From NCBI GenBank assembly GCA_001796515.1, contig MGMS01000016.1, forward strand, positions 22,714 through 86,713: 64,000 bases of DNA, in the 5' to 3' direction. Below the pieces are notes generated by a model. The model did no database searches. It was not told the origin of the DNA and saw only the letters and a list, made by a program, of their open reading frames with translations. Position 1 is the first letter of the stretch. The number at the start of each line of letters is the position of its first letter. Source of the stretch: Chloroflexi bacterium RBG_13_51_36. Its GTDB lineage: Bacteria > Chloroflexota > Dehalococcoidia > GIF9 > AB-539-J10. Of the stretch, positions 9,641 through 48,133 are shown one piece after another. Made by a program: the position numbers and the translations under genes.

Positions 9641-10933
9641 GTGACAGCCATGGACGGAAGCAAAAAGAGGGTGCTCATCCTGGGCGCAGGCGCGGCCGGG
9701 ATTAGCACTGCGCTGGAGTTGAAGAAAGCTTCCGCTCATGCGACGGGACTCGAGGTGACACTGGTAGATCAGCGGGATGATCATTGTCCCCTGCCTTTTG
9801 TATGGCAGGTGGTCAGCGGGAGCGTGCAACCCGGTCATATCTCTTTCCCTGTGCGTGTCCTGCTGAAAGAAGGGGATGGTGCCGGACCGGTTAGGTTCAA
9901 GCAGAGCCAGGTGCAGGGCATAGATGTGGCGAGGAAAGTGGTCAGTACTGATGATGGAGAACTGGAGTGGGACTATCTGGTGGTGACTCTGGGCAGCACC
10001 ACCAATTTCTTTGGAATGGCCGATGCCGAGGAGAACTCGCAGACTTTGAAATCCCTGAGCGATGCCGTCAATATCCATAATCGCATTTTGGACAACTACG
10101 AGGCGGCGTTGCAGGAAAGAGATGAACAGCGCCGGCGCGAGCTACTCACCTTTGTGGTGGTGGGGGGTGGACCCACGGGGATAGAACTGGCGGCGGCCAT
10201 CCAGGATTTCGTGCGCAAGGCGCTGGTGCGGAAATACCCCTCTCTCACGTCTCAAGTTCGGGTGCTCCTGGTCGAAGCGCAGGACGCTCTCCTCTCCGGC
10301 ATGAAGGCCAAAATGTCGGAACTGGCTATCAGCCGGCTACACTCTCGGGGAATCGAGGTTTTGTTGAAGACTCGTATTACCAGAGTCTGGTCAGGTGGTA
10401 TTCAGACTGCCGATGGGCAGACTATACCGACTCGAACCGTTGTCTGGGTAGCAGGGGTGAAGCCGGTGGCTGTTGTAGAGTCGTTGCCTTTCAATAAGGC
10501 AAAAGGCGGCCGCATCGTGGTGAATCAATATCTGGAGGTCAGTGAGTCGCCCGGGGTCTATGTGCTCGGGGATTGCGCCTATTTATTGCAGGAAGATGGG
10601 TCAGCGCCCTATCCGCCAACCCAGCAGGTAGCTCAGCGACAGGGACCGGCCTGTGCCAGGAACATCATCCGCGCAATACAGGGTAAGGACCAGCGTCCCT
10701 TCCGTTACAGGTTCAAGGGGCAGGTGATATATATGGGCAGGAATCTGGTGCTGGCCCAGCTAGGGGGCCGCGTCTTCGATGGTTTTGCCGCCGCAATAGT
10801 GCGGCGAGTCTATTATCTATGGGTATTCATTTCATATCTCGGTCTGCCCACAGAATTCAGGAGAAAGCTGGGCGCTCTTCGTGATTGGGTCCCCGCCTAT
10901 TTCTACCATCGCAATACGACTCGCCTGGAGTGA
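9641..10933 (+). CDS. NAD(P)/FAD-dependent oxidoreductase, type II NADH dehydrogenase-like
   Basis: KKRVLILGAGAAGISTALEL, FVVVGGGPTGIELAAAI, GVYVLGDCAYL; C-terminus FKGQVIYMGRN. Confidence 0.85.
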   Translation: MTAMDGSKKRVLILGAGAAGISTALELKKASAHATGLEVTLVDQRDDHCPLPFVWQVVSGSVQPGHISFPVRVLLKEGDGAGPVRFKQSQVQGIDVARKVVSTDDGELEWDYLVVTLGSTTNFFGMADAEENSQTLKSLSDAVNIHNRILDNYEAALQERDEQRRRELLTFVVVGGGPTGIELAAAIQDFVRKALVRKYPSLTSQVRVLLVEAQDALLSGMKAKMSELAISRLHSRGIEVLLKTRITRVWSGGIQTADGQTIPTRTVVWVAGVKPVAVVESLPFNKAKGGRIVVNQYLEVSESPGVYVLGDCAYLLQEDGSAPYPPTQQVAQRQGPACARNIIRAIQGKDQRPFRYRFKGQVIYMGRNLVLAQLGGRVFDGFAAAIVRRVYYLWVFISYLGLPTEFRRKLGALRDWVPAYFYHRNTTRLE

Positions 10934-12145: not shown

Positions 12146-13249
12146 ATGGCAGATCCGAGAGTTGAAACCGTAGCCAAGATTCTGGTCGATTATTCTGTAG
12201 GGGTGAAGCCGAATCAGCTGGTGTGGATCACGAGTGGCGCAGAGGGTGGGCCGTTGATTCTGGCTATCTATCAGAAGGTCCTTGAGCGCGGTGCTCATCC
12301 TTTTCTTCAGGTTGAACCGGAGGAGGCAGAAGAGCTTTTCTATGCCTATGCCAGCAATGCGCAGCTTGATTATATGCCGCCCTTCATGATGGAAATTGTT
12401 GAGCAGATCGATGCGAACATTGGGGTCTGGACCGACGTGAATACCAAGCAGCTCACTAATTCCGACCCTGCCAAGCAGTCCCGCCGAGCAGTGGCGAGGC
12501 GCCCCTTCTCTGACCGATTTCTCGAGCGGGCGGCTAAGAAAGAGCTGCACTGGACTGGTACCCTCTACCCCTCCCAGGCCTTCGCTCAGGATGCCGAGAT
12601 GTCGCTGCGCGAGTTCGAGGATTTCGTCTATGGAGCTTGCCTGGTTCATGAACCTGATCCAATCAAGGCCTGGAAGAGAATCTCCAAAGAGCAGCAGCGC
12701 ATCGCCAATTGGCTGAACAAAGCCAGAAGGATTCATGTCCTTGGCCCGGGTACCGACCTCAAACTGGACGTCAAAGGCCGGAAGTGGATAAACTGCGACG
12801 GGCATGAGAACTTTCCCGATGGTGAGATCTTCACTGGACCCATCGAGGACAGCCTGAACGGGCATATCAGGTACACATATCCTGCCTGCGCCTATGGCCG
12901 TGAGGTGGAAGATGTCCGGCTCCAGTTCAAAGAAGGAAAGGTCGTCAAGGCCACCGCGGCCAAGAATGAGGAGTTCCTGCTGAAGATGCTGAAGAGTGAC
13001 AAAGGGGCATGCTACGTTGGAGAGTTCGCCTTAGGCACCAATTACGCGATCCAGCGGTTCACCAAGAACATCCTTTTCGATGAAAAGATCGGCGGGACAA
13101 TTCATCTGGCTCTTGGAAAGGGCTTTCCCGAGTCGGGGAGCAAGAACAAGTCCGCCATCCACTGGGATATGGTCTGCGACCTCCGCAAAGGCGGAGAAGT
13201 GCGTGTAGACGGGACTCTCTTCCTGAAGGACGGGAAGATTGTGGTGTGA
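12146..13249 (+). CDS. Aminopeptidase, M29 (AmpS/aminopeptidase T) family
   Basis: AEILVDYSVxVxPNxLVxI..., INCDGHENFPDGEIFTGPIEDS, NYAIQRFTKNILFDEKIGGTIHLALG, SAIHWDMVCDLR. Confidence 0.88.
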   Translation: MADPRVETVAKILVDYSVGVKPNQLVWITSGAEGGPLILAIYQKVLERGAHPFLQVEPEEAEELFYAYASNAQLDYMPPFMMEIVEQIDANIGVWTDVNTKQLTNSDPAKQSRRAVARRPFSDRFLERAAKKELHWTGTLYPSQAFAQDAEMSLREFEDFVYGACLVHEPDPIKAWKRISKEQQRIANWLNKARRIHVLGPGTDLKLDVKGRKWINCDGHENFPDGEIFTGPIEDSLNGHIRYTYPACAYGREVEDVRLQFKEGKVVKATAAKNEEFLLKMLKSDKGACYVGEFALGTNYAIQRFTKNILFDEKIGGTIHLALGKGFPESGSKNKSAIHWDMVCDLRKGGEVRVDGTLFLKDGKIVV

Positions 13250-13332: not shown

Positions 13333-14436
13333 ATGACAGATCCACGAGTCGAAATTTTAGCTGAGATTCTGGTCGATTACTCTGTTGAGGTGCGACCCAA
13401 CCATTTGGTCCGCATCACCGGTGCCCCGGAGGGCGCGCCGCTGGTCTTGGCTGTCTATCGAAAAGTTCTGGAGCGTGGTGCTCACCCTTTTCTCTTGGTT
13501 GAGCTGGGGGAGGCACAAGAGCTTCTGTTCGCCTATGCCAGCGATGCCCAGCTTGATTATGTCCCGCCTTTTATGAGGGACATCATTGAGCAAATCGACG
13601 TAAGCATTGGAGTCTGGACGGATGTGAACACCAAGCAGCTCACCAATGCCGACCCAGCCAAACAGTCCCGTCGGTCAGCGGCGAGGCGTCCGATCTTCGA
13701 CCGATTTCTGGAGCGAGCGGCCAAGAAAGAACTGCAGTGGACCACCACCCTCTACCCGACCCAGGCTTTCGCTCAGGATGCGGAGATGTCGCTGCGCGAG
13801 TTTGAGGATTTCGTGTATGGAGCTTGCCTGGTTCATGAACCTGATCCAATTAAGGCCTGGAAGAAAATCTCCAAAGAGCAGCAGCGGGTCACTAACTGGT
13901 TGAAGAAAGCCAGGCAGATCCATGTCATCGGCCCGGACACTGACCTCAAGCTCGAAGTTGCAGGCCGGAAGTGGATCAACTGCGATGGACATGAGAACTT
14001 CCCCGATGGTGAGATATTCACCGGGCCTATCGAAGACAGTGTGAACGGGCATATCAGATACAGTTTTCCTGCCTGCGTCTATGGTCGTGAGGTGGAGGAT
14101 GTCCGCCTGTGGTTCAAGGATGGGAAGGTCGTCAAGGCCACCGCAGCTAAGAACGAAGAGTTCCTGTTGAAGATGCTGGAGTCAGACAAAGGAGCACGTT
14201 ATGTAGGAGAGTTCTCTTTCGGCACCAATTACGGAATTCAGCGCTTCACCAGGAACACGCTTTTCGATGAGAAGATTGGGGGGACGATCCATCTAGCCAT
14301 TGGGGCCGGTTATCCCGAGTCGGGGAGCAAGAACAAGTCCGCCATCCATTGGGACATGGTCTGCGACCTCCGCAAAGGGGGAGAAGTGCGTGTAGACGGG
14401 ACTCTCTTCCTCAAGGACGGCAAGATCCTGATTTAG
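13333..14436 (+). CDS. Aminopeptidase, M29 family, tandem paralog
   Basis: Same length and highly similar to the 12146-13249 product. Confidence 0.88.
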   Translation: MTDPRVEILAEILVDYSVEVRPNHLVRITGAPEGAPLVLAVYRKVLERGAHPFLLVELGEAQELLFAYASDAQLDYVPPFMRDIIEQIDVSIGVWTDVNTKQLTNADPAKQSRRSAARRPIFDRFLERAAKKELQWTTTLYPTQAFAQDAEMSLREFEDFVYGACLVHEPDPIKAWKKISKEQQRVTNWLKKARQIHVIGPDTDLKLEVAGRKWINCDGHENFPDGEIFTGPIEDSVNGHIRYSFPACVYGREVEDVRLWFKDGKVVKATAAKNEEFLLKMLESDKGARYVGEFSFGTNYGIQRFTRNTLFDEKIGGTIHLAIGAGYPESGSKNKSAIHWDMVCDLRKGGEVRVDGTLFLKDGKILI

Positions 14437-14556: not shown

Positions 14557-16986
14557 CTACCTGTCCGTATCTACCCACAGCGTCTCTCCATCGGTAATGA
14601 ACTCGATGGTGTCATCCTCATCTGTCCGATAGATATTGCTCTCGCCCAGCTTGTCGATAAGTCTCTCGATAACCTCGATGGCGGGGTGGCCAAAGGTGTT
14701 GTCCTCTCCCACGCAAATCACCGCCACTTCAGGGTCAACCGCGGCCAGAAACTGCAGGGAAGTGGAAGTCCTGCTGCCATGATGGGCCACTTTCAGCACA
14801 GTGCTTCTCAGGTTGGCTCGCTGCCCGATGAGCTCGAACTCAACTTCTGCCCGTATGTCGGCAGTAAACAGAAAGCCGATTCTATTCCAGGTCAGCTTTA
14901 GCACCAGTCCGTTGTTGTCAATGTCATCGTCAGTTCCCCTCCACAGGCTTGCTGGCGGATTCAGTACCTCCAACTTGATTCCGCCGCCCAGGTCAATCTC
15001 CTGTCCGGCGCGGGCCACGTCACATTCGATCCCTTTATCTGCAATAAGCCTGAGCCATTCCTGATAGACAGAAGAGTTGTAGGATACACCAGGTTCAAGC
15101 ACCTGCTTCACCCTGTATCTCTGGAGGACCTCCACCAGGCCGGTTACATGGTCGGCTTGAGGTTGAGTACACATTACGAGGTCTATCGTCCTGTCCCAGA
15201 AAGCGAGCTTCTCGCTCAGCTCCAGATTGATCTTCTGAGGGTCAGGGCCGCCGTCAATGAGTATGTCCTGCCCTTCTGGCGTCTGAATTAGGATGGCATC
15301 TCCTTGTCCCACATCAAGAAAACTTACGTGGAGCTTGCCATCCGGCTGGGTCAGAGCTATAGACCACACCAGGAGGGCCGCTATCAAAAGGGGCAGGACA
15401 AGCCATTTGGGAGAGAAGCCGAGGCGAGGCTTGGGGATGACTTGGGCGGCGTCCCTTATTCTGGAGGTCAACCTGGAGGCAAAATCAGTCAATTTGGTTC
15501 TATGGTTAACGAGCGCTATAGCTCCCGCTAATATAACATAGTATCCCCAGACGTACCACGCGGAAATAGTCGCCACTTCTAACGAAGAGTGAGGCAACGC
15601 ATCAAAGCCCTGAACCACAGAGACGAGATAGCTGAGAAAAAGCCAAGCCAGCCAGCCCAGTATCTGAGCGGCAAGCAAGGCGAAGAGTCCCGTGAAGGCG
15701 ACCAACGATGATGTCACTATGATAAATGGCAGAGTGGGCAGGGCGAAGAATGTTGCTGGCAGGCCGACCAGAGAGACTATGCCAAAGTTGTAGGCTATAA
15801 GTGGCAAGACTAGCACACTAGCTGCCAGGCTGGCGGCAAAGGTGTCGGTTACTATACTGGCTGTGGGCACAATCCTATCCCTGTTCTTGAACAAACGAGC
15901 CACGCCTTTTCTTCCCCAAGTTTGGAAATAAGGGTAAAGAAGAACGAGCCCGGCCATGGCCAAGAAGCTCAACTGAAAGGAGGCGCTCCACAAAACATAT
16001 GGTTGGATTCCCACCATCACCGCAGCGGCAAAGGCCAGTGCAATGATGGCGTTTCCCTGCCTCCCGAGGTATACAGCTATTATAAACAGGCTTCCCATGA
16101 TTGCTGCTCGAATTACTGGCGGATTCATCCCGGCAAGCAGGGTATAGAGCCAGATAAGCGCTAGAGTCAACCAGATATATATGGAACGCTGCCGGCCAAA
16201 AAGCAGGGTGAACAAGCTGAGGAGGATGGCAATGATGATGCTCATGTGTAAACCAGAAATAGCTAGCAGGTGTGCTGTCCCGGTCCTGGAAAAGGCTTTG
16301 TTTAGAGAATCAGGCACATTGTCTCTTAAGCCCAGCAAAATAGCCTGGGCCAATGAACCTTGTGGCTCAGGCAAGGCCCTGGCCAAGGAGACAGAGAGTT
16401 GTTCTCTCAAAGAGTAAATCCACTGCAAAGGTTTAACGCCCTGGCCGCGGTCCAGAAGTTCTATTTTGGGGTAATAGATGAGCGAATAGATTCCCTGGCG
16501 GGCCAGGTAGGTTATGTAGTCAAAATCTTCAGATTGAGATGGGGTCTCCAGCTCGCCGGTTACCTTGAGGACATCCCCATAGTGGTAAACGGGATATCGT
16601 GGCACTCGGATTAGGGTGCTTCCCCATACCTCTTTGCTCTCGCCACTTACAGTTATCTCGCTGGCGGAGAGTGTCAACAGGCAATATCTATCTCGAATGT
16701 CAGGCTCCTCCGTCACCATGCCCTGCATCTCTACGGTGCCTGCATCGTTGTAAGAGCGAACGAAATGCTCATCCGCTGGAGGGAAGAGTGACGGGTAACG
16801 CATGGTGCCGCCAAGGACGGCCAGGAGGCATAACCCGGCTACTATTAAGGTCTTCCTGCTGCTGAGGCGGAAAGGTATAAGCGCGAAGGGGATAAGTCCC
16901 AAGAAGAGGGCCAGCCAGGGCAGGCCAATCTTGGAACCGAGAAATATCCCGACGACCCAAGCACAGCTGACATAGAGAAGCCACAC
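14557..16986 (-). CDS. comEC: ComEC/Rec2 DNA uptake channel with C-terminal metallo-beta-lactamase-like domain
   Basis: GLRDNVPDSLNKAFSRTGTAHLLAISGLHMSI; SFLDVGQGDAILIQTPEGQDILIDGGP; LKVAHHGSRTSTSLQFL. Confidence 0.92.
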   Translation of the reverse strand: MWLLYVSCAWVVGIFLGSKIGLPWLALFLGLIPFALIPFRLSSRKTLIVAGLCLLAVLGGTMRYPSLFPPADEHFVRSYNDAGTVEMQGMVTEEPDIRDRYCLLTLSASEITVSGESKEVWGSTLIRVPRYPVYHYGDVLKVTGELETPSQSEDFDYITYLARQGIYSLIYYPKIELLDRGQGVKPLQWIYSLREQLSVSLARALPEPQGSLAQAILLGLRDNVPDSLNKAFSRTGTAHLLAISGLHMSIIIAILLSLFTLLFGRQRSIYIWLTLALIWLYTLLAGMNPPVIRAAIMGSLFIIAVYLGRQGNAIIALAFAAAVMVGIQPYVLWSASFQLSFLAMAGLVLLYPYFQTWGRKGVARLFKNRDRIVPTASIVTDTFAASLAASVLVLPLIAYNFGIVSLVGLPATFFALPTLPFIIVTSSLVAFTGLFALLAAQILGWLAWLFLSYLVSVVQGFDALPHSSLEVATISAWYVWGYYVILAGAIALVNHRTKLTDFASRLTSRIRDAAQVIPKPRLGFSPKWLVLPLLIAALLVWSIALTQPDGKLHVSFLDVGQGDAILIQTPEGQDILIDGGPDPQKINLELSEKLAFWDRTIDLVMCTQPQADHVTGLVEVLQRYRVKQVLEPGVSYNSSVYQEWLRLIADKGIECDVARAGQEIDLGGGIKLEVLNPPASLWRGTDDDIDNNGLVLKLTWNRIGFLFTADIRAEVEFELIGQRANLRSTVLKVAHHGSRTSTSLQFLAAVDPEVAVICVGEDNTFGHPAIEVIERLIDKLGESNIYRTDEDDTIEFITDGETLWVDTDR

Positions 16987-17127
16987 ATGTGAATTATACC
17001 AGAGCAGCTACGGCCGATTTATCTCTGTGGTAAAATGGAATTACATTGAAGAAGCAGCACATGCTGCAGTCATAATTACTTGGGAAAGGGTAGCTCTGTC
17101 TGACATAGAAGGAGGAGATGAGAATTT

Positions 17128-17577
17128 ATGAAGGCTGGTCATGAACAGAAGAGTCTTTGTGAGTATAATACTAATAAGGAGCTAATTGTGCGACTCAAAC
17201 ATGGTGCGGACTTAATCCAGTCCATAACTGAACTCGCCAGAAACAGGGGAATTGAGGCAGGAAGCTTTACGGCAATCGGTGCCTTACAGCGTGCCAGACT
17301 CGGCTACTATGACCAGAAAAATCATGAGTACCGGGAGATAAAAATTGATTCACCTCACGAAATGGCAAGTTGCGTAGGGAACATATCGTTGAAGGACGGA
17401 GAGCCCTTTGTCCATGCGCACGCAGTACTTGCCGACGAAACGGGAGGTACCAGGGGTGGTCATCTATCTGGAGGAATTGTTTTTGCTGCTGAAGTCCACC
17501 TGCGTCAATTAGAAGGGCCGAGGCTTGAGCGGGAATATGATGAAGCAACCGGCCTTTCGCTTTGGGATGTGGAGTGA
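17128..17577 (+). CDS. PPC/DUF296 domain DNA-binding protein
   Basis: LIVRLKHGADLIQSITELARNRGIEAGSFTAIGALQRARLGYYD...PFVHAHAVLADETGGTRGGHLSGGIVFAAEV. Confidence 0.85.
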   Translation: MKAGHEQKSLCEYNTNKELIVRLKHGADLIQSITELARNRGIEAGSFTAIGALQRARLGYYDQKNHEYREIKIDSPHEMASCVGNISLKDGEPFVHAHAVLADETGGTRGGHLSGGIVFAAEVHLRQLEGPRLEREYDEATGLSLWDVE

Positions 17578-17787
17578 TGTCTTCTTGCGTACGTATCAAT
17601 CTCATGACAATCTCTTTTCCCAACACTGGATTGCTTCGGCTGACTTCGGCACCCTCGCAAATACGAAGGCAGAAGATGCCTTGTGATAACCTTTGAGGAC
17701 GAGTTCTGTAAACCTCTACGAATTATCCGTGTGATAAAATGGTATTGTTCTGAAGATGCTGTAGGCCTTATGCAGGAGGTTACGGAA

Positions 17788-17922
17788 ATGCGCAAGTCAA
17801 AGAGCACGAAGGTATGCAAGCACCCGGAGAGGCTGAAAGGCAAGCCGGGAGAATGCAGTCCTGAACAAATCAAAGAATGCCATGGCGAGGTTCTAGAGCA
17901 TCCCTGCGTAAAAGAGAAGTAG
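17788..17922 (+). CDS. 44-aa four-cysteine small protein
   Basis: AGGAGGT Shine-Dalgarno 7 nt before ATG; MRKSKSTKVCKHPERLKGKPGECSPEQIKECHGEVLEHPCVKEK. Confidence 0.6.
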   Translation: MRKSKSTKVCKHPERLKGKPGECSPEQIKECHGEVLEHPCVKEK

Positions 17923-17944
17923 CCCAGCCAGCGATTTGGAGAGG
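17920..17944 (+). repeat. Cassette-boundary repeat R1
   Basis: TAGCCCAGCCAGCGATTTGGAGAGG; begins at the stop codon of the preceding ORF. Confidence 0.9.
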
Positions 17945-17950
17945 CATCCC

Positions 17951-18169
17951 ATGCAGAAGGGCACAATAAAACGGCTAGTTGCAGACCGTAGTTTTGGGTT
18001 CATCCAGACGGAGCGGGAAGAAGACCTCTTCTTTGGCCGCAATCAGCTTCAAGGGGTGGACTATGGTTCCCTTAGAGAAGGGCAAAAAGTGGAATTTGAG
18101 GTTACACGCGACCCCAACGGTCACCTCCACGCAATCAGGGTGAGGCTTGCTCAGCCTGAAGGTGAATAG
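17951..18169 (+). CDS. Cold-shock-domain-like protein
   Basis: MQKGTIKRLVADRSFGFIQTEREEDLFFGRNQLQGVDYGSLREGQKVEFEVTRDPNGHLHAIRVRL. Confidence 0.85.
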   Translation: MQKGTIKRLVADRSFGFIQTEREEDLFFGRNQLQGVDYGSLREGQKVEFEVTRDPNGHLHAIRVRLAQPEGE

Positions 18170-18173
18170 CAGC

Positions 18174-18198
18174 AAGCCCAGCCGGCGGCTTTGGAGAC
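18174..18198 (+). repeat. Cassette-boundary repeat R2 (diverged)
   Basis: AAGCCCAGCCGGCGGCTTTGGAGAC. Confidence 0.8.
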
Positions 18199-18291
18199 AA
18201 CCCAAAGCTATCCTCAAATCTTATGTTTCTTGTGTGTTGTCTACCAGGTTGGTATAATCTCACAAAGGGAATTTCGTTCACTAGGAGAAGA

Positions 18292-18381
18292 ATGGCACAG
18301 AAGAAAGCAGCAAAAAAGACAGGAAAGAACGCGCGGAAGAAAGGCGCGGAGTATCTTCGGAAGGGTCCGAAGAAGCGATGA
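18292..18381 (+). CDS. 29-aa Lys/Arg-rich microprotein
   Basis: TATAAT at 18253 (possible TTGTCT upstream) and AGGAG before ATG; MAQKKAAKKTGKNARKKGAEYLRKGPKKR. Absent from the supplied ORF track, probably because of length. Confidence 0.5.
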   Translation: MAQKKAAKKTGKNARKKGAEYLRKGPKKR

Positions 18382-18462
18382 GATAAGGGCCGATTTATTT
18401 GCAGTCTTGAGCGGATTCTATTTCATTCCTGCCCTATAGATAACAGGGGAATAAAATGAACG

Positions 18463-18488
18463 TAGCCCAGCCAGCGGATTTGTAGAGA
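18463..18488 (+). repeat. Cassette-boundary repeat R3
   Basis: TAGCCCAGCCAGCGGATTTGTAGAGA. Confidence 0.9.
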
Positions 18489-18561
18489 ATAATACAGAAA
18501 GAGGGGGACTAAGTATAAAAGTTACTGAGCGGCTAGGTTATTAGGGGACGTAGGTATATCT

Positions 18562-19203
18562 ATGTCAGCCAAAAAGAGATTGCAAGAGGCTAGATTCTTC
18601 CTTGAGGAACTGCGTGATTCCTTACAGTCGCTTCCTCAGGACTCACCCACACAAATGAAATCTTGCTATTACCTAAGCGCATTTCAATCGGCAGCTGTAA
18701 GCGTAGTCGATTATTTACTCGAAGACGCCAATATCGAGTTCAGTTTGGGTATATCGTTGGACGAGAAATTAAGAGATATTTTTGAAAGTAAAGCAAAGGA
18801 AATTGATAACAAAGCCGCTTTAGATTTTCTCAAGTGGTGGAGAGAAGAGAGAGAGGCTTTAAAGAATGACCCGATAGGGAAACTGTTGACGGACAAAAGA
18901 CATATAGGTATACACAGGAGGCAAACAAAGCCAGACCTAGCCAAGATTGAAACAGGGGGTAACCTTTCCTTTTCAGGTAGCTTGGGAATTAAACACCCTT
19001 GTCAGGATAAGCTAGTAGACACCTGTAAGACTCCAGAGCAACCTCCCACAAGACCAAAGGCAACAGAAACAAATTTTGACTGGTTCTTCAGTGACTACCC
19101 CGACGAACCTGTCATAACTGTTTGTGGCAAATTTCTGGATAAGTTGGCAAGGCTTGTGTCAGAAGCGGAGCGGAAGTTCCCGCAGCACGAGACGGAAAGC
19201 TAA
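18562..19203 (+). CDS. Hypothetical protein
   Basis: 213-aa ORF bounded by R3 and R4; no family recognised. Confidence 0.65.
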   Translation: MSAKKRLQEARFFLEELRDSLQSLPQDSPTQMKSCYYLSAFQSAAVSVVDYLLEDANIEFSLGISLDEKLRDIFESKAKEIDNKAALDFLKWWREEREALKNDPIGKLLTDKRHIGIHRRQTKPDLAKIETGGNLSFSGSLGIKHPCQDKLVDTCKTPEQPPTRPKATETNFDWFFSDYPDEPVITVCGKFLDKLARLVSEAERKFPQHETES

Positions 19204-19220
19204 CTGTGAAATGAGGTTAT

Positions 19221-19246
19221 AAGCCCAGCCAGCGGATTTGGAGAGG
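19221..19246 (+). repeat. Cassette-boundary repeat R4
   Basis: AAGCCCAGCCAGCGGATTTGGAGAGG. Confidence 0.92.
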
Positions 19247-19321
19247 GCAGTTGAGGCAATAGGGGGAAGAGAACACACGCAGTTTTCCTTGTATAATTGA
19301 TGAAGAGATGGGGTGCCTAGA

Positions 19322-19720
19322 ATGGGTAAATACGAAGTTCGCATAAGCCGAAAGTGTGAGCAGTGTGGTGTAGAATTGAAGGAGAGCGATAAGAAGTGTC
19401 CAAACTGTGGCTCTAACTCGATGTATGCTGTGCAAGCTGGTGGCACACTCCCAACGCAGGGGAGCCTTAATAGAGAACATGTAGCTCCCTGGACTTCTAA
19501 AGATTGGGCCATTCTGTCCGTGATACTGGCAATTATACTGTTCCTTTTGTATTTAGCCTATGAGCTGCTCCCACTATCTTCTGAGCTAAAAATTGCGATA
19601 TCAATCGTAATTGTGCTAGCGCTAGCATTCGCCATTTACTGGCAAAGTTATCATGTTCGTATGTTCATCCGATGGTTAGACCGCAAGTTCACGGCTAGAA
19701 AAACATATCGTGATAGATAA
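19322..19720 (+). CDS. Zinc-ribbon, two-TM membrane protein
   Basis: KCEQCGVELKESDKKCPNCGSN followed by hydrophobic segments ILSVILAIILFLLYLAY and IAISIVIVLALAFAIYW. Confidence 0.7.
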   Translation: MGKYEVRISRKCEQCGVELKESDKKCPNCGSNSMYAVQAGGTLPTQGSLNREHVAPWTSKDWAILSVILAIILFLLYLAYELLPLSSELKIAISIVIVLALAFAIYWQSYHVRMFIRWLDRKFTARKTYRDR

Positions 19721-19771
19721 ACAAGCCTTCATAATCTCAGTAAAATATTGGATGTATTAAGGGAATGAATT

Positions 19772-19797
19772 CAGCCCAGCCAGCGGATTTGGATGGG
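19772..19797 (+). repeat. Cassette-boundary repeat R5
   Basis: CAGCCCAGCCAGCGGATTTGGATGGG. Confidence 0.9.
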
Positions 19798-19823
19798 TAA
19801 CAGAACAAGGAAGGAGGTCAGCT

Positions 19824-20069
19824 ATGTTATTCATGAGTCTTCTATCACCGAAAGGAAAGGGCAGAGAGGCTATCGACTATTTGAAAAGGCTCAAAGCTCC
19901 GAAGGGAATCACAATCCACGATGTTTATGTCACCATTGGGCGATATGACGGCGTAGTTGTCTTTGAAGCACCCACCCCCAAGACGGCTATGAGCTTTGTG
20001 GTGGACGTGGGAATTAAGACAGGCTACCTTATCGAAACCCTAAGCGCCGTTCCCGCCAAAGAAGTCTGA
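19824..20069 (+). CDS. GYD-domain-like small protein
   Basis: MLFMSLLSPKGKGREAIDYLKRLKAPKGITIHDVYVTIGRYDGVVVFEAPTPKTAMSFVVDVGIKTGYLIETLSAVP. Confidence 0.75.
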   Translation: MLFMSLLSPKGKGREAIDYLKRLKAPKGITIHDVYVTIGRYDGVVVFEAPTPKTAMSFVVDVGIKTGYLIETLSAVPAKEV

Positions 20070-20152
20070 GCACTGTTCTGCCCCAGCAGAGATTCACGAG
20101 ATACAGAAGGCAGGTCTGGAGAGAAAAGAGCTGTAGGCACGGAGGTGAACCC

Positions 20153-20605
20153 ATGAACCTTTCGTGGTTTTATATAATAGTGACAATTGTATTTGCAGCG
20201 GTTACTGGATACTATGCCTATGAGACGAGGAGAATCAGGGAAGAGACGATACGACCGAAGCTATCGTTGAGGACCGGAATGTATACGTATGGGGGAGGTT
20301 TCGACGAGCTAATATTGACGAACACAGGCGCTGTAGCAAGGGATATTGACATAGATATTGAAAGGGGCATGGAAGGAGGCCCGAAGATTCAAGAAGCACT
20401 TTTTGTCCCATCTCTTGATACATCGCAAGAAATCAGTCTTATTACCGACCTCGACTCAATCAGACGATACAATGGCTTTGTCAATGTCCGCCTCAACTTC
20501 AAGGATACTTCGAAGAGGAAGCTGACCGAGACACTGTCGATTGACTTCGCTGAGGTGGCAAGACGGGGCAGGAAAATCACTTTCCAGACCACGCCCAAGG
20601 ATTAA
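20153..20605 (+). CDS. Hypothetical membrane-anchored protein
   Basis: N-terminal TM helix then a soluble domain; no family recognised. Confidence 0.6.
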   Translation: MNLSWFYIIVTIVFAAVTGYYAYETRRIREETIRPKLSLRTGMYTYGGGFDELILTNTGAVARDIDIDIERGMEGGPKIQEALFVPSLDTSQEISLITDLDSIRRYNGFVNVRLNFKDTSKRKLTETLSIDFAEVARRGRKITFQTTPKD

Positions 20606-20663
20606 ATGTCGACCAAATACGAAGGGCCGGCAACCCAGATACGGAGCGGTTTACAGTCGGGGA

Positions 20664-21548
20664 CTAGTAGCCCCCAATGACATTCTTTCTGGACAGCATA
20701 TCGTAGTAGTGGTTGTTGTTCTGCAGACCATTGAGAGCCGTCGTGTGGTCCACCGATGACCCGTAACGTCGCCGAAGCTGGACTGCGTCTATGGCATGGC
20801 ACTTTGGCTTCGCGTGTCCGACACTACCTGTTTCATGGTGCTGAGAAAGCAAGTTCATGTTGACGGAGTGGTGTGTTGTTCCCTCCGCGGCACCAGAGGT
20901 CGTAGCCCAATTGGAATGGGCCACAGCGCTATTCGTGCTTTCGAAGCGCTGGGAAAGCCACTCCATATTTATCGCGTGATGAATCACCTCCTCTGTTCTG
21001 GTGGATGTGTTAGTGTGACTACCAACATATTTGCAGCGCTGGGAAAGACCCTGCATATCTGCGGCGTGGTTCGCCGTGCCCTCTCGTATATTACACCTGA
21101 CAGGCTGAACTGAAGGCTTAGCTTCAAAGCTGCGGCTGCCTGTAATTTGCCCGAGAATAGCACGTTCCTCACTCAAACCGTGGCGCTTTGCTGGGCCCGC
21201 GGCACCGGATTCGCCATAAGCGTAGTCGCCAAGATGACCGGTGTGGGCCAGATAATACTGGACCATTTCTCGGAGGTGATTATTCCGATTGGCTTCAAGC
21301 TTTTTGGACAAATGCCGAGCGACAAGTATGAGTGCTACACCGAACGGTGTGGTAAAGGGTTCCGGGGCGAATATCAAAGCAATGCCCAGGTGCCTCAGAA
21401 GCCTGATGCCAGTTCCAGTCCCAACCATGCTAGTCCATAAAAGCACATCCCCGCCAGTGTCTATCCTCGGGTTATGTGGACTGGCGGGATAAGCAAGCTG
21501 CCAGACTACTTTGTGGACGTGCTTATAAAAGTCTAGTGCGTGTAACAA
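20664..21548 (-). CDS. Hypothetical protein with about four degenerate His/Asn/Ser-rich C-terminal repeats
   Basis: 294-aa ORF; hydrophobic N-terminal half; repeated motif HAxNMxxLSQRxE in the C-terminal half. Confidence 0.5.
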   Translation of the reverse strand: MLHALDFYKHVHKVVWQLAYPASPHNPRIDTGGDVLLWTSMVGTGTGIRLLRHLGIALIFAPEPFTTPFGVALILVARHLSKKLEANRNNHLREMVQYYLAHTGHLGDYAYGESGAAGPAKRHGLSEERAILGQITGSRSFEAKPSVQPVRCNIREGTANHAADMQGLSQRCKYVGSHTNTSTRTEEVIHHAINMEWLSQRFESTNSAVAHSNWATTSGAAEGTTHHSVNMNLLSQHHETGSVGHAKPKCHAIDAVQLRRRYGSSVDHTTALNGLQNNNHYYDMLSRKNVIGGY

Positions 21549-21662
21549 GTGTTGTCAATAGGTTAGGGCTCTATGCTCGAAAAAATTATGCTCTATCTTG
21601 TAAACAGACCAGTAATGCCGCCGGACGAAATGATTTGGAGGATGATGATGGACGGCGATGCG

Positions 21663-21688
21663 TAGCCGGCCAGTAGATTTGGAGAAGG
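21663..21688 (+). repeat. Cassette-boundary repeat R6 (diverged)
   Basis: TAGCCGGCCAGTAGATTTGGAGAAGG. Confidence 0.75.
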
Positions 21689-21750
21689 CCTTTCGGTTAT
21701 TATGAAAGAGTAAGGCAATGTTGCCTGAAAGAACAGTGGAGGTGAAAGGA

Positions 21751-22086
21751 ATGGAGCAGAAGAGACTGGAGAAGTTTGTCGGCCAAGGGATCAGATTAGT
21801 TGATTTAGCTGATTATCAAGAAGGTTCTGTGGTGAGTCGAACCATAATTGATAAGAAGACGGGTACGGTTACCTTTTTCGCATTTGCTGAAGGGCAAGGC
21901 TTAAGCGAGCATACGGCACCGTTCGATGCCCTGGTCTATCTCATTGAAGGTGAAGCGGAAATTGTTATCTCCGGCAAACCTATTCGCGTGAAAGGTGGTG
22001 AGGTGGTCATCATGCCGGCCAATCAGCCACATGCTCTGCAGGCAATAAGGAATTTCAAGATGATTCTCACGATGATTCGGTCTTGA
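21751..22086 (+). CDS. Cupin domain protein
   Basis: GLSEHTAPFDALVYLIEGEAEIVISGKPIRVKGGEVVIMPANQPHALQA. Confidence 0.88.
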   Translation: MEQKRLEKFVGQGIRLVDLADYQEGSVVSRTIIDKKTGTVTFFAFAEGQGLSEHTAPFDALVYLIEGEAEIVISGKPIRVKGGEVVIMPANQPHALQAIRNFKMILTMIRS

Positions 22087-22140
22087 TGTGGAAGATGAAA
22101 TTGAGATGGCAACCTTGCCTGACAGCGTGCAAAACGCTTC

Positions 22141-22647
22141 TTAATCCGACACGGTTATGAAATCCTTTATCTTTTCAAACGTCGCGGGACCGATACCGCT
22201 GACCCTAAGCAAGTCCTCGATTCTTCTGAAGGTGCCGTTTTCAGTACGGTAATCCACGATAGCTTGGGCAGTAACCTCACCTATGCCCGGCAAGGCTTCA
22301 AGCAGCCAGGGTTCGGCTCGGTTGATGTCTATCTTCTGAGGGGATTGTCCTTCGCTTTCCCGAGGAATGTTAATCTCAATATGGCCGAGGTCAGCATCGG
22401 GTTCAATGCCGGCACTCAGAAGAAGAGTCTGTATGGTGTCACCCTCCTGCCAGGGATAGATACCGGGGTTAGCCACGGCGCCGCTGATGTACAGTTCGCC
22501 GTTTTGCGCCGGAAGTTCTGTTTGGGAAATAACGATTTCCACGGGCTGGTTTCGGCTGTGTTGCACCGTCAGCATTATGCCGCCAACTATTGCGGCGATA
22601 AGCAGAAAGACTGTTATGGATAGGTAGACTTTATCGGCACGGCTCAT
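22141..22647 (-). CDS. comEA: ComEA-like helix-hairpin-helix protein
   Basis: SLBB-like segment and IDINRAEPWLLEALPGIGEVTAQAIVDYRTENGTFRRIEDLLRVSGIGPATFEKIKDFI. Confidence 0.88.
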   Translation of the reverse strand: MSRADKVYLSITVFLLIAAIVGGIMLTVQHSRNQPVEIVISQTELPAQNGELYISGAVANPGIYPWQEGDTIQTLLLSAGIEPDADLGHIEINIPRESEGQSPQKIDINRAEPWLLEALPGIGEVTAQAIVDYRTENGTFRRIEDLLRVSGIGPATFEKIKDFITVSD

Positions 22648-22887
22648 GGCATAGCTCCTTTCTCAATAAATATGGTCATAAATGATATTCTACAACAAAA
22701 TCGCTTTTGCCAGCCTAGGCCCAAGAAAACCTTTTGATGGCTCCTCTTCATTATTCTGAAGCAGCCTCCTCCGGCAACAGAGCCGGCTGGGTGCGAAATA
22801 GTCATTCGCGGTCTCTCTCTTGACTTTGCTATGAGCCTGCACATACAATCAATAATAAGATCAAATATCCAGCTAAAGGAGGCGAAA

Positions 22888-43860: not shown

Positions 43861-44277
43861 CTCCGCAGTATAAGCCCTAAGTGCAAAAGGCGAAGCTATC
43901 CTCAAACTTCACCAAACTAAGCAGGTTTCCGTACCACGTCTGTTAATATCGTCATTGTCATTCTTGTCGCTGTTCTTATTGCTATCGTTTGTTGCTAGCA
44001 TCCTTTGTTGCCGTTGGGATTTGCGTTATCTCGCCGTTAAGAGGTATTGACTTTTTCGTAGACCATTGTTATTCTTAGATTGACTTTTAGTAATTTAGAT
44101 CAACTTCTGTTGAATGTCCTCACATATATTATTCTTGGATGTGTCTTATGAATAGACTCAACTGAGCCTAGAAAACGTTAAGAGCTAGTCGGAGAAAGAA
44201 GGTGCCAGCTGTCACGAAATTGAATCGTCAAAGTGCTACCTACGGAATCAATAGCGATTAAGAAGGAAAGAAGTAAG

Positions 44278-47933: not shown

Positions 47934-48133
47934 GAACAGCCTCCTTTCGGTCGGGTGGATGATGTGCTCTTGCTTTTGATTCAATTCTACCACCAGTTGA
48001 CCTTATGCAGGAGAGACTACGAACCGTTAGCTCAGTGAAGCCTGACGATAGCTTTAGCCTTCGGCACAGGCCTGAGCAACTTCTGAGAAAGGATCTGCCT
48101 ATCGTAACAAACGTCATCTTGTTGCGTCCAGTG

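Follow-up and report, generated by a model that had tools for sequence, protein, structure and literature searches.

A short conserved repeat at the borders of probably mobile gene cassettes beside comEA in a Dehalococcoidia genome

Introduction

Why should a repeat of about 26 bp stand between one small gene and the next in the chromosome of an uncultured bacterium? The question is raised by a 64-kb stretch of DNA (hereafter the window) from Chloroflexi bacterium RBG_13_51_36, corresponding to positions 22714–86713 of contig 16 in a genome of 1.93 Mb and 57 contigs, in which six direct copies of the repeat (consensus TAGCCCAGCCAGCGGATTTGGAGAGG; hereafter the core) lie between single small genes at 17.9–21.7 kb. 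An earlier note on this DNA had likened the layout to that of gene cassettes, and had proposed either an undescribed cassette or insertion system or a regulatory repeat of 3' untranslated regions (3'-UTRs). The first of these proposals is supported by the comparisons described here, in which repeat-bounded units are seen to be gained, lost and reordered, and to be common to several genera. The window probably holds an array of mobile gene cassettes that recombine at the core by means of an Xer-type enzyme acting in trans. There is good support for the reading as cassettes, and the system, integron-like in its working, stands outside both known cassette families on the features tested.

The core repeat in the window and in related genomes

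The six cores are all on the + strand, at 17920–17944 (R1), 18174–18199 (R2), 18463–18488 (R3), 19221–19246 (R4), 19772–19797 (R5) and 21663–21687 (R6); R1 carries a 1-bp deletion and R6 is the most degenerate of the six. A position-weight model run over the whole 64-kb window, on both strands, scored them at 24–45 bits, and the next independent site reached 8.8. When up to three mismatches were allowed, the 26-bp consensus had three matches in the window and none in 100 dinucleotide shuffles. All six copies reported in the earlier note are thus present, and its observation that two of them supply TAG stop codons also holds, R1 ending the Cys4 open reading frame (ORF) and R6 a possible 30-aa ORF that starts at 21574. 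The distance from the upstream stop to the core is variable in the window, at 0–80 nt. Elsewhere in the 1.93-Mb genome there is one further copy within three mismatches (C8:22961), the reversed-pattern control giving none, so the repeat is not scattered, a question that the earlier note had left to a genome-wide search. Decayed repeats suspected by eye near 20080 and 22110 gave no score in the position-weight scan and are not claimed. Across 50 non-redundant copies from several genomes, conservation is restricted to T-AGCCCAGCCAGCGGATTTGGAGAG-G. A scan of window positions 17000–22700 returned no Rfam match, and a structured RNA was rejected on that ground as the identity of the repeat.

The core was found in 18 of 60 relatives and, across the order, in 22 of 84 genomes, with controls at 0 throughout. 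Twenty of these carriers are among the 52 genomes of the window's family, and the other two belong to two further families. An exact-pattern scan of one genome per species (84,980 species) returned 17 stretches, 16 of which are titled Dehalococcoidia, Chloroflexi or Chloroflexota; the remaining one, from a cyanobacterial draft genome, is chance-like. Viral contigs held no exact core, and window positions 17900–18500 had no match among phages or plasmids, results on which a viral, phage or plasmid carrier of the cassettes was rejected.

In the arrays of these genomes, neighbouring cores have the same orientation in 41 of 41 cases (0 opposite), complete cassettes are 202–1864 bp in length, and the content is mostly single small genes, including those for cold-shock, GYD, cupin, zinc-ribbon, nitroreductase and HNH proteins and many unknowns, along with a Panacea-domain protein and a type IIG restriction enzyme. 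Besides those at comEA, further arrays occur at other chromosomal places. At one locus of genome G033 (L035, 2289–2333) two cores abut directly, forming an apparently empty cassette.

A second dispersed repeat, with the core ATAAAGCCTCAAGCTATCCTCAAACTTCACTGA, is found in 12 of 20 genomes of the window's genus and at many loci (e.g., L122, L123, L043 and L173). Its copies in the window, at 43890 and 46801 on the + strand and near 48056 on the – strand, are all degenerate. The flanks of this repeat are recurring yet exchangeable on both sides, and often a TATAAT box follows it closely; at times it directly adjoins a cassette core.

Exchange of cassettes at the core

Flanks were compared among 77 core copies. 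Among copy pairs, 50 had left flanks that were alike and right flanks that were unrelated, 31 showed the reverse, and 12 were alike on both sides. Identity between left flanks remains at ~90–95% until core position 0 and then drops to the level of unrelated copies, and identity between right flanks starts at about position 25 of the core. Within the core, position 0 is associated with the left flank (p<0.001), and positions 14–18 (p 0.045) and 19–25 (p 0.011) with the right flank. This linkage places the exchange point within the core, without narrowing it further.

Gene order beside comEA differs among relatives, with breakpoints at the repeat, and the fixed synteny that the earlier note had weighed as a possible outcome is not what is seen. 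In the window the order is PCC-Cys4-CspA-basic-u213-ZnR-GYD-u150-294aa-cupin (the genes are described below). Genome G001 (L119) has Cys4-CspA-basic-GYD-294aa-cupin, and G010 (L040) has the same series preceded by a PCC gene; the order is cupin-CspA-basic-GYD-294aa in G015 (L039) and Cys4-GYD-294aa-basic in G019 (L048). The u213 and ZnR genes of the window are two extra whole cassettes, the basic/GYD junction in G001 and G010 being a single core, and no other fetched array contains a homologue of either. The units that are gained, lost and reordered are whole cassettes, with breakpoints inside the core.

Cassettes are also passed between genera. The CspA cassette of G034, which belongs to a different genus, is 93–97% identical over its full length to the copies in the window's genus, whereas comEA identity between genera with a common CspA cassette is 66–71%; at third codon positions, the same genomes are 86–94% identical in CspA and 42–52% in comEA. 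Over 1.7 kb of that G034 contig the closest relatives, at 72–84%, are from other genera, and the contig therefore did not stray in from the window's genus. In G033, a member of a further genus, the basic-protein cassette is 88–92% identical to the copies of the window's genus.

At comEA the arrays can be compared with undisturbed sites. Directly after the comEA stop comes comEC in nine genomes (L151, L153, L156, L158 and L161–L165), and in seven genomes (L137, L140, L141, L146, L147, L148 and L157) a core lies just past that stop. These empty and filled sites indicate that the array split a competence gene pair, both members of which are intact in the window despite the array: comEA, which forms the right array border (22141–22647, – strand), and comEC (14557–16986, – strand). 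Displaced comEA 3' ends lie beside a cassette core in G012 (L045, 239–406, 56 codons) and G033 (L219, 6326–6421, 32 codons), and both of these genomes also have an intact comEA nearby. We take the displaced ends as a sign of incoming DNA repeatedly recombining at the comEA 3' end.

Candidate recombinase

Tyrosine recombinases were found in every genome examined, and one of Xer type acting in trans is our best guess for the enzyme, being the most economical candidate. Serine recombinases, Y1 (HUH) transposases and IS110 over the cut-off were each found in only 2 of 10 carriers, and were rejected as general mobilisers for that reason. Three Xer-type kinds recur: XerD-like, type C and type B. The genes for types C and B are neighbours separated by a 193-aa gene that has no Pfam or NCBIfam match, and the unit spans 8333–10795 of L225, 8209–10671 of L226 and 10466–12968 of L229. 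In G019, G012 and G006 (type B being broken in G006) the pair occupies the same conserved place in the chromosome, and in G033 it lies at another. The window's own genome (L227, 9253–10191) and G015 retain type B alone at the conserved place, the unit having been partly lost. A recombinase of phage type is encoded in G005 (L042, 7292–8239), about 2 kb from a lone core (10003–10027); its N-terminus as called resembles read-through of a tRNA 3' end, and it may belong to an integrative element.

Several observations weigh against an array of cassettes served by an enzyme of this kind. In 424 kb of array loci there are just two full-length tyrosine recombinases (G005 and G016), both kilobases from a core, and conversely the 199 kb around recombinase genes contain no core, so that the recombinase with the repeat beside it, for which the earlier note had suggested a search, did not come to light. 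Proteins like type C seemingly occur outside carriers too, and their presence therefore does not single them out. The core has, by inspection, no clear inverted arms of the sort that tyrosine recombinases usually bind. Mid-core variants track neither flank, so that no single fixed crossover point is demonstrated, and in the window scan the GYD/u150 and cupin/comEA borders are without a recognisable core. Lastly, all of the genomes are draft metagenome assemblies and several arrays stop at contig ends, as would suit an artefact of assembly or binning in which chimeric joins were made at a short repeat. The k-mers usual in assembly are longer than a 26-bp repeat, however, and the same junctions recur in independent genomes (the 12 pairs with both flanks alike), array contigs continue into ordinary chromosomal sequence, and the window's genus is not the source of the G034 contig; such an artefact is hardly credible.

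Some of the same observations would fit an absence of any dedicated enzyme, with natural transformation supplying DNA for RecA-dependent or microhomology recombination between the short repeats, and with the repeat conserved for another purpose such as expression of the gene that follows. The arrays have no linked recombinase, variable crossover points would give mid-core variants that follow neither flank, and the intact comEA and comEC beside the arrays mean that the cells may take up DNA. Homologous recombination has its lower length limit near 24–26 bp. We nevertheless regard this explanation as unlikely. The core has no constant relation to gene starts or stops, which makes a second reason for its conservation hard to name, and the breakpoints cluster at the core even though adjoining cassettes that are homologous would give longer stretches of homology. 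A strictly common orientation and units of one gene are, moreover, typical of site-specific systems.

If the window does hold an array of mobile cassettes recombined by an Xer-type enzyme, a cassette would usually comprise one small gene and one 24–26-bp copy of the core, and cassettes would be gained, lost and reordered through recombination between cores, their orientation staying constant. The exchange would be driven by a site-specific recombinase, most likely an Xer-type tyrosine recombinase encoded elsewhere on the chromosome, which presumably acts on the double-stranded core, and the cassettes may travel as circles.

Cassette genes and their expression

The genes between the cores are functionally unrelated and, with the exception of one at 20664–21548, on the + strand, in agreement with the earlier note. 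Pfam matches are mixed: the cold-shock, GYD and cupin proteins matched, the zinc-ribbon protein fell below the cut-off and the others gave none. The series begins with a Cys4 miniprotein of 44 aa (17788–17922), homologues of which are found in other arrays with other cassettes downstream, followed by a CspA-like cold-shock-domain protein of 72 aa (17951–18169, PF00313) that is common to several genera and a basic microprotein of 29 aa (18292–18381) that is present in other arrays. The two cassettes gained in the window genome come next, encoding u213, a 213-aa protein without assigned function (18562–19203), and ZnR, a zinc-ribbon membrane-type protein with weak zinc-ribbon matches (19322–19720). 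The GYD-domain gene (19824–20069, PF08734) occurs in other arrays, and no core separates it from the gene for u150 (20153–20605), a further protein without assigned function, which has no homologue among the other fetched arrays. The – strand gene encodes a 294-aa protein with homologues in the arrays of G001, G010, G015 and G019; three diverged direct repeats of ~39 nt lie within it (20832–21068), which suggests that its product is a repeat protein. The cupin gene (21751–22086, +, PF07883) is the last in the window array and the first in that of G015.

Adjoining the array is a PCC-domain gene (17128–17577, +, PF03479), which elsewhere lies within arrays, in G004 and G008. Beside comEC, two closely similar 367-aa proteins are encoded in tandem (12146–13249 and 13333–14436), a recent-looking gene duplication.

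Of 78 core copies, 15 have an exact TATAAT on the sense strand within the 50 nt that precede them, against 1.65 expected, and the reverse strand had none. A promoter-bearing flank recurs upstream of several cores, beyond array starts as well, without an adjacent intI. In the CspA unit the repeat forms the 5' leader and likely includes the ribosome-binding site. To judge from these motifs, cassettes seem to be expressed from their own promoters, by read-through, or from a promoter at the tail of the preceding cassette; in the mechanism proposed above, the promoter often found just upstream of the core would assist the first two.

Promoters just upstream of the core, and a plausible ribosome-binding site for CspA within it, are also what commend the view that the core is a 3'-UTR or 5'-leader element of ordinary genes, marking their borders by chance. 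This is very improbable. It leaves the breakpoints in the core, the gain of whole units and the transfer between genera unexplained, and the variable distances to starts and stops, the lack of an Rfam family and the single other copy in the genome also speak against it; as a sole explanation it is refuted by the shuffling of units. The 3'-UTR version put forward earlier is disfavoured by the varying stop distance and by the position of the repeat as a 5' leader in the CspA unit.

Comparison with known systems

Integrons are the main known bacterial device for collecting and reordering single genes, and the dif modules of Acinetobacter are the second. Like integron arrays, the arrays described here line up small, unrelated genes, mostly one at a time, in a single orientation with a recombination site between them, and they resemble integrons also in the gain and loss of whole cassettes, in having cassettes common to species, and in a preferred chromosomal place. 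The site itself is different. It is 24–26 bp long, conserved in sequence and without a folded attC structure, whereas attC sites are described as varying in sequence and keeping their structure (PMC9024848). Its consensus AGCCCAGCCAGCGGATTTGGAGAG contains no GTT and hence no R' core (GTTRRRY), and because no complementary arm is present either, it is not an attC site. Folding of the attC kind was rejected, since none of the 78 copies has such an arm upstream or downstream and nothing is conserved outside the core.

Integron integrases are absent from the carriers and none adjoins the arrays. Of 84 genomes, only G070 exceeded the cut-off of the model TIGR02249, and it has no core. The earlier note's remarks that no integrase was visible and that attC features were missing are thereby borne out. 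A degenerate integron without integrase (CALIN), in which the repeat would be a remnant of attC sites, is accordingly a very unlikely identity for the array. Layout, cassette size, cargo and common orientation would all fit integron cassettes, and G070 is of the same order, but the only integrase over the cut-off sits in a core-less genome, no inverted arm is found near the core (mean z –0.19 upstream and –0.06 downstream; 78 copies), and a site without GTT that conserves sequence and not structure is the reverse of attC. This explanation is largely refuted.

The dif modules of Acinetobacter plasmids (pdif sites, XerC/XerD) are likewise small modules of genes bounded by short sites, of 28 bp in that case; their arrays too lack a recombinase and are acted on in trans by chromosomal Xer enzymes. 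In the carriers, Xer-type recombinases are similarly encoded in the cell and unlinked to the array. The C and D modules of Acinetobacter alternate because their sites alternate in orientation (PMC13141974), whereas neighbouring cores here are all direct (41/41). By inspection, the core also lacks evident XerC/XerD-type arms or a dyad, and the arrays are chromosomal, not plasmid-borne.

There is a further likeness to elements that integrate at the 3' ends of genes, in that arrays start right after the comEA stop and displaced comEA 3' ends are found in G012 and G033. The present system differs in exchanging single cassettes at its own repeat and at several loci besides comEA, and it has no single island with its own integrase.

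Among the papers searched, nothing was found on such a cassette system in Dehalococcoidia. We consider it an evenly balanced question whether this is a separate, undescribed cassette platform, largely confined to one Dehalococcoidia-type family, that has its own double-stranded 24–26-bp site and is served in trans by a chromosomal recombinase, probably one derived from Xer. If it is, cassette capture evolved independently of integrons. The spread of many small genes of unknown function among these bacteria would be explained, and the comEA-comEC region offers a ready-made place for watching genes come and go. Beside integrons and dif modules, this would be a third system, in uncultured bacteria, and cassette capture would have arisen more than once.

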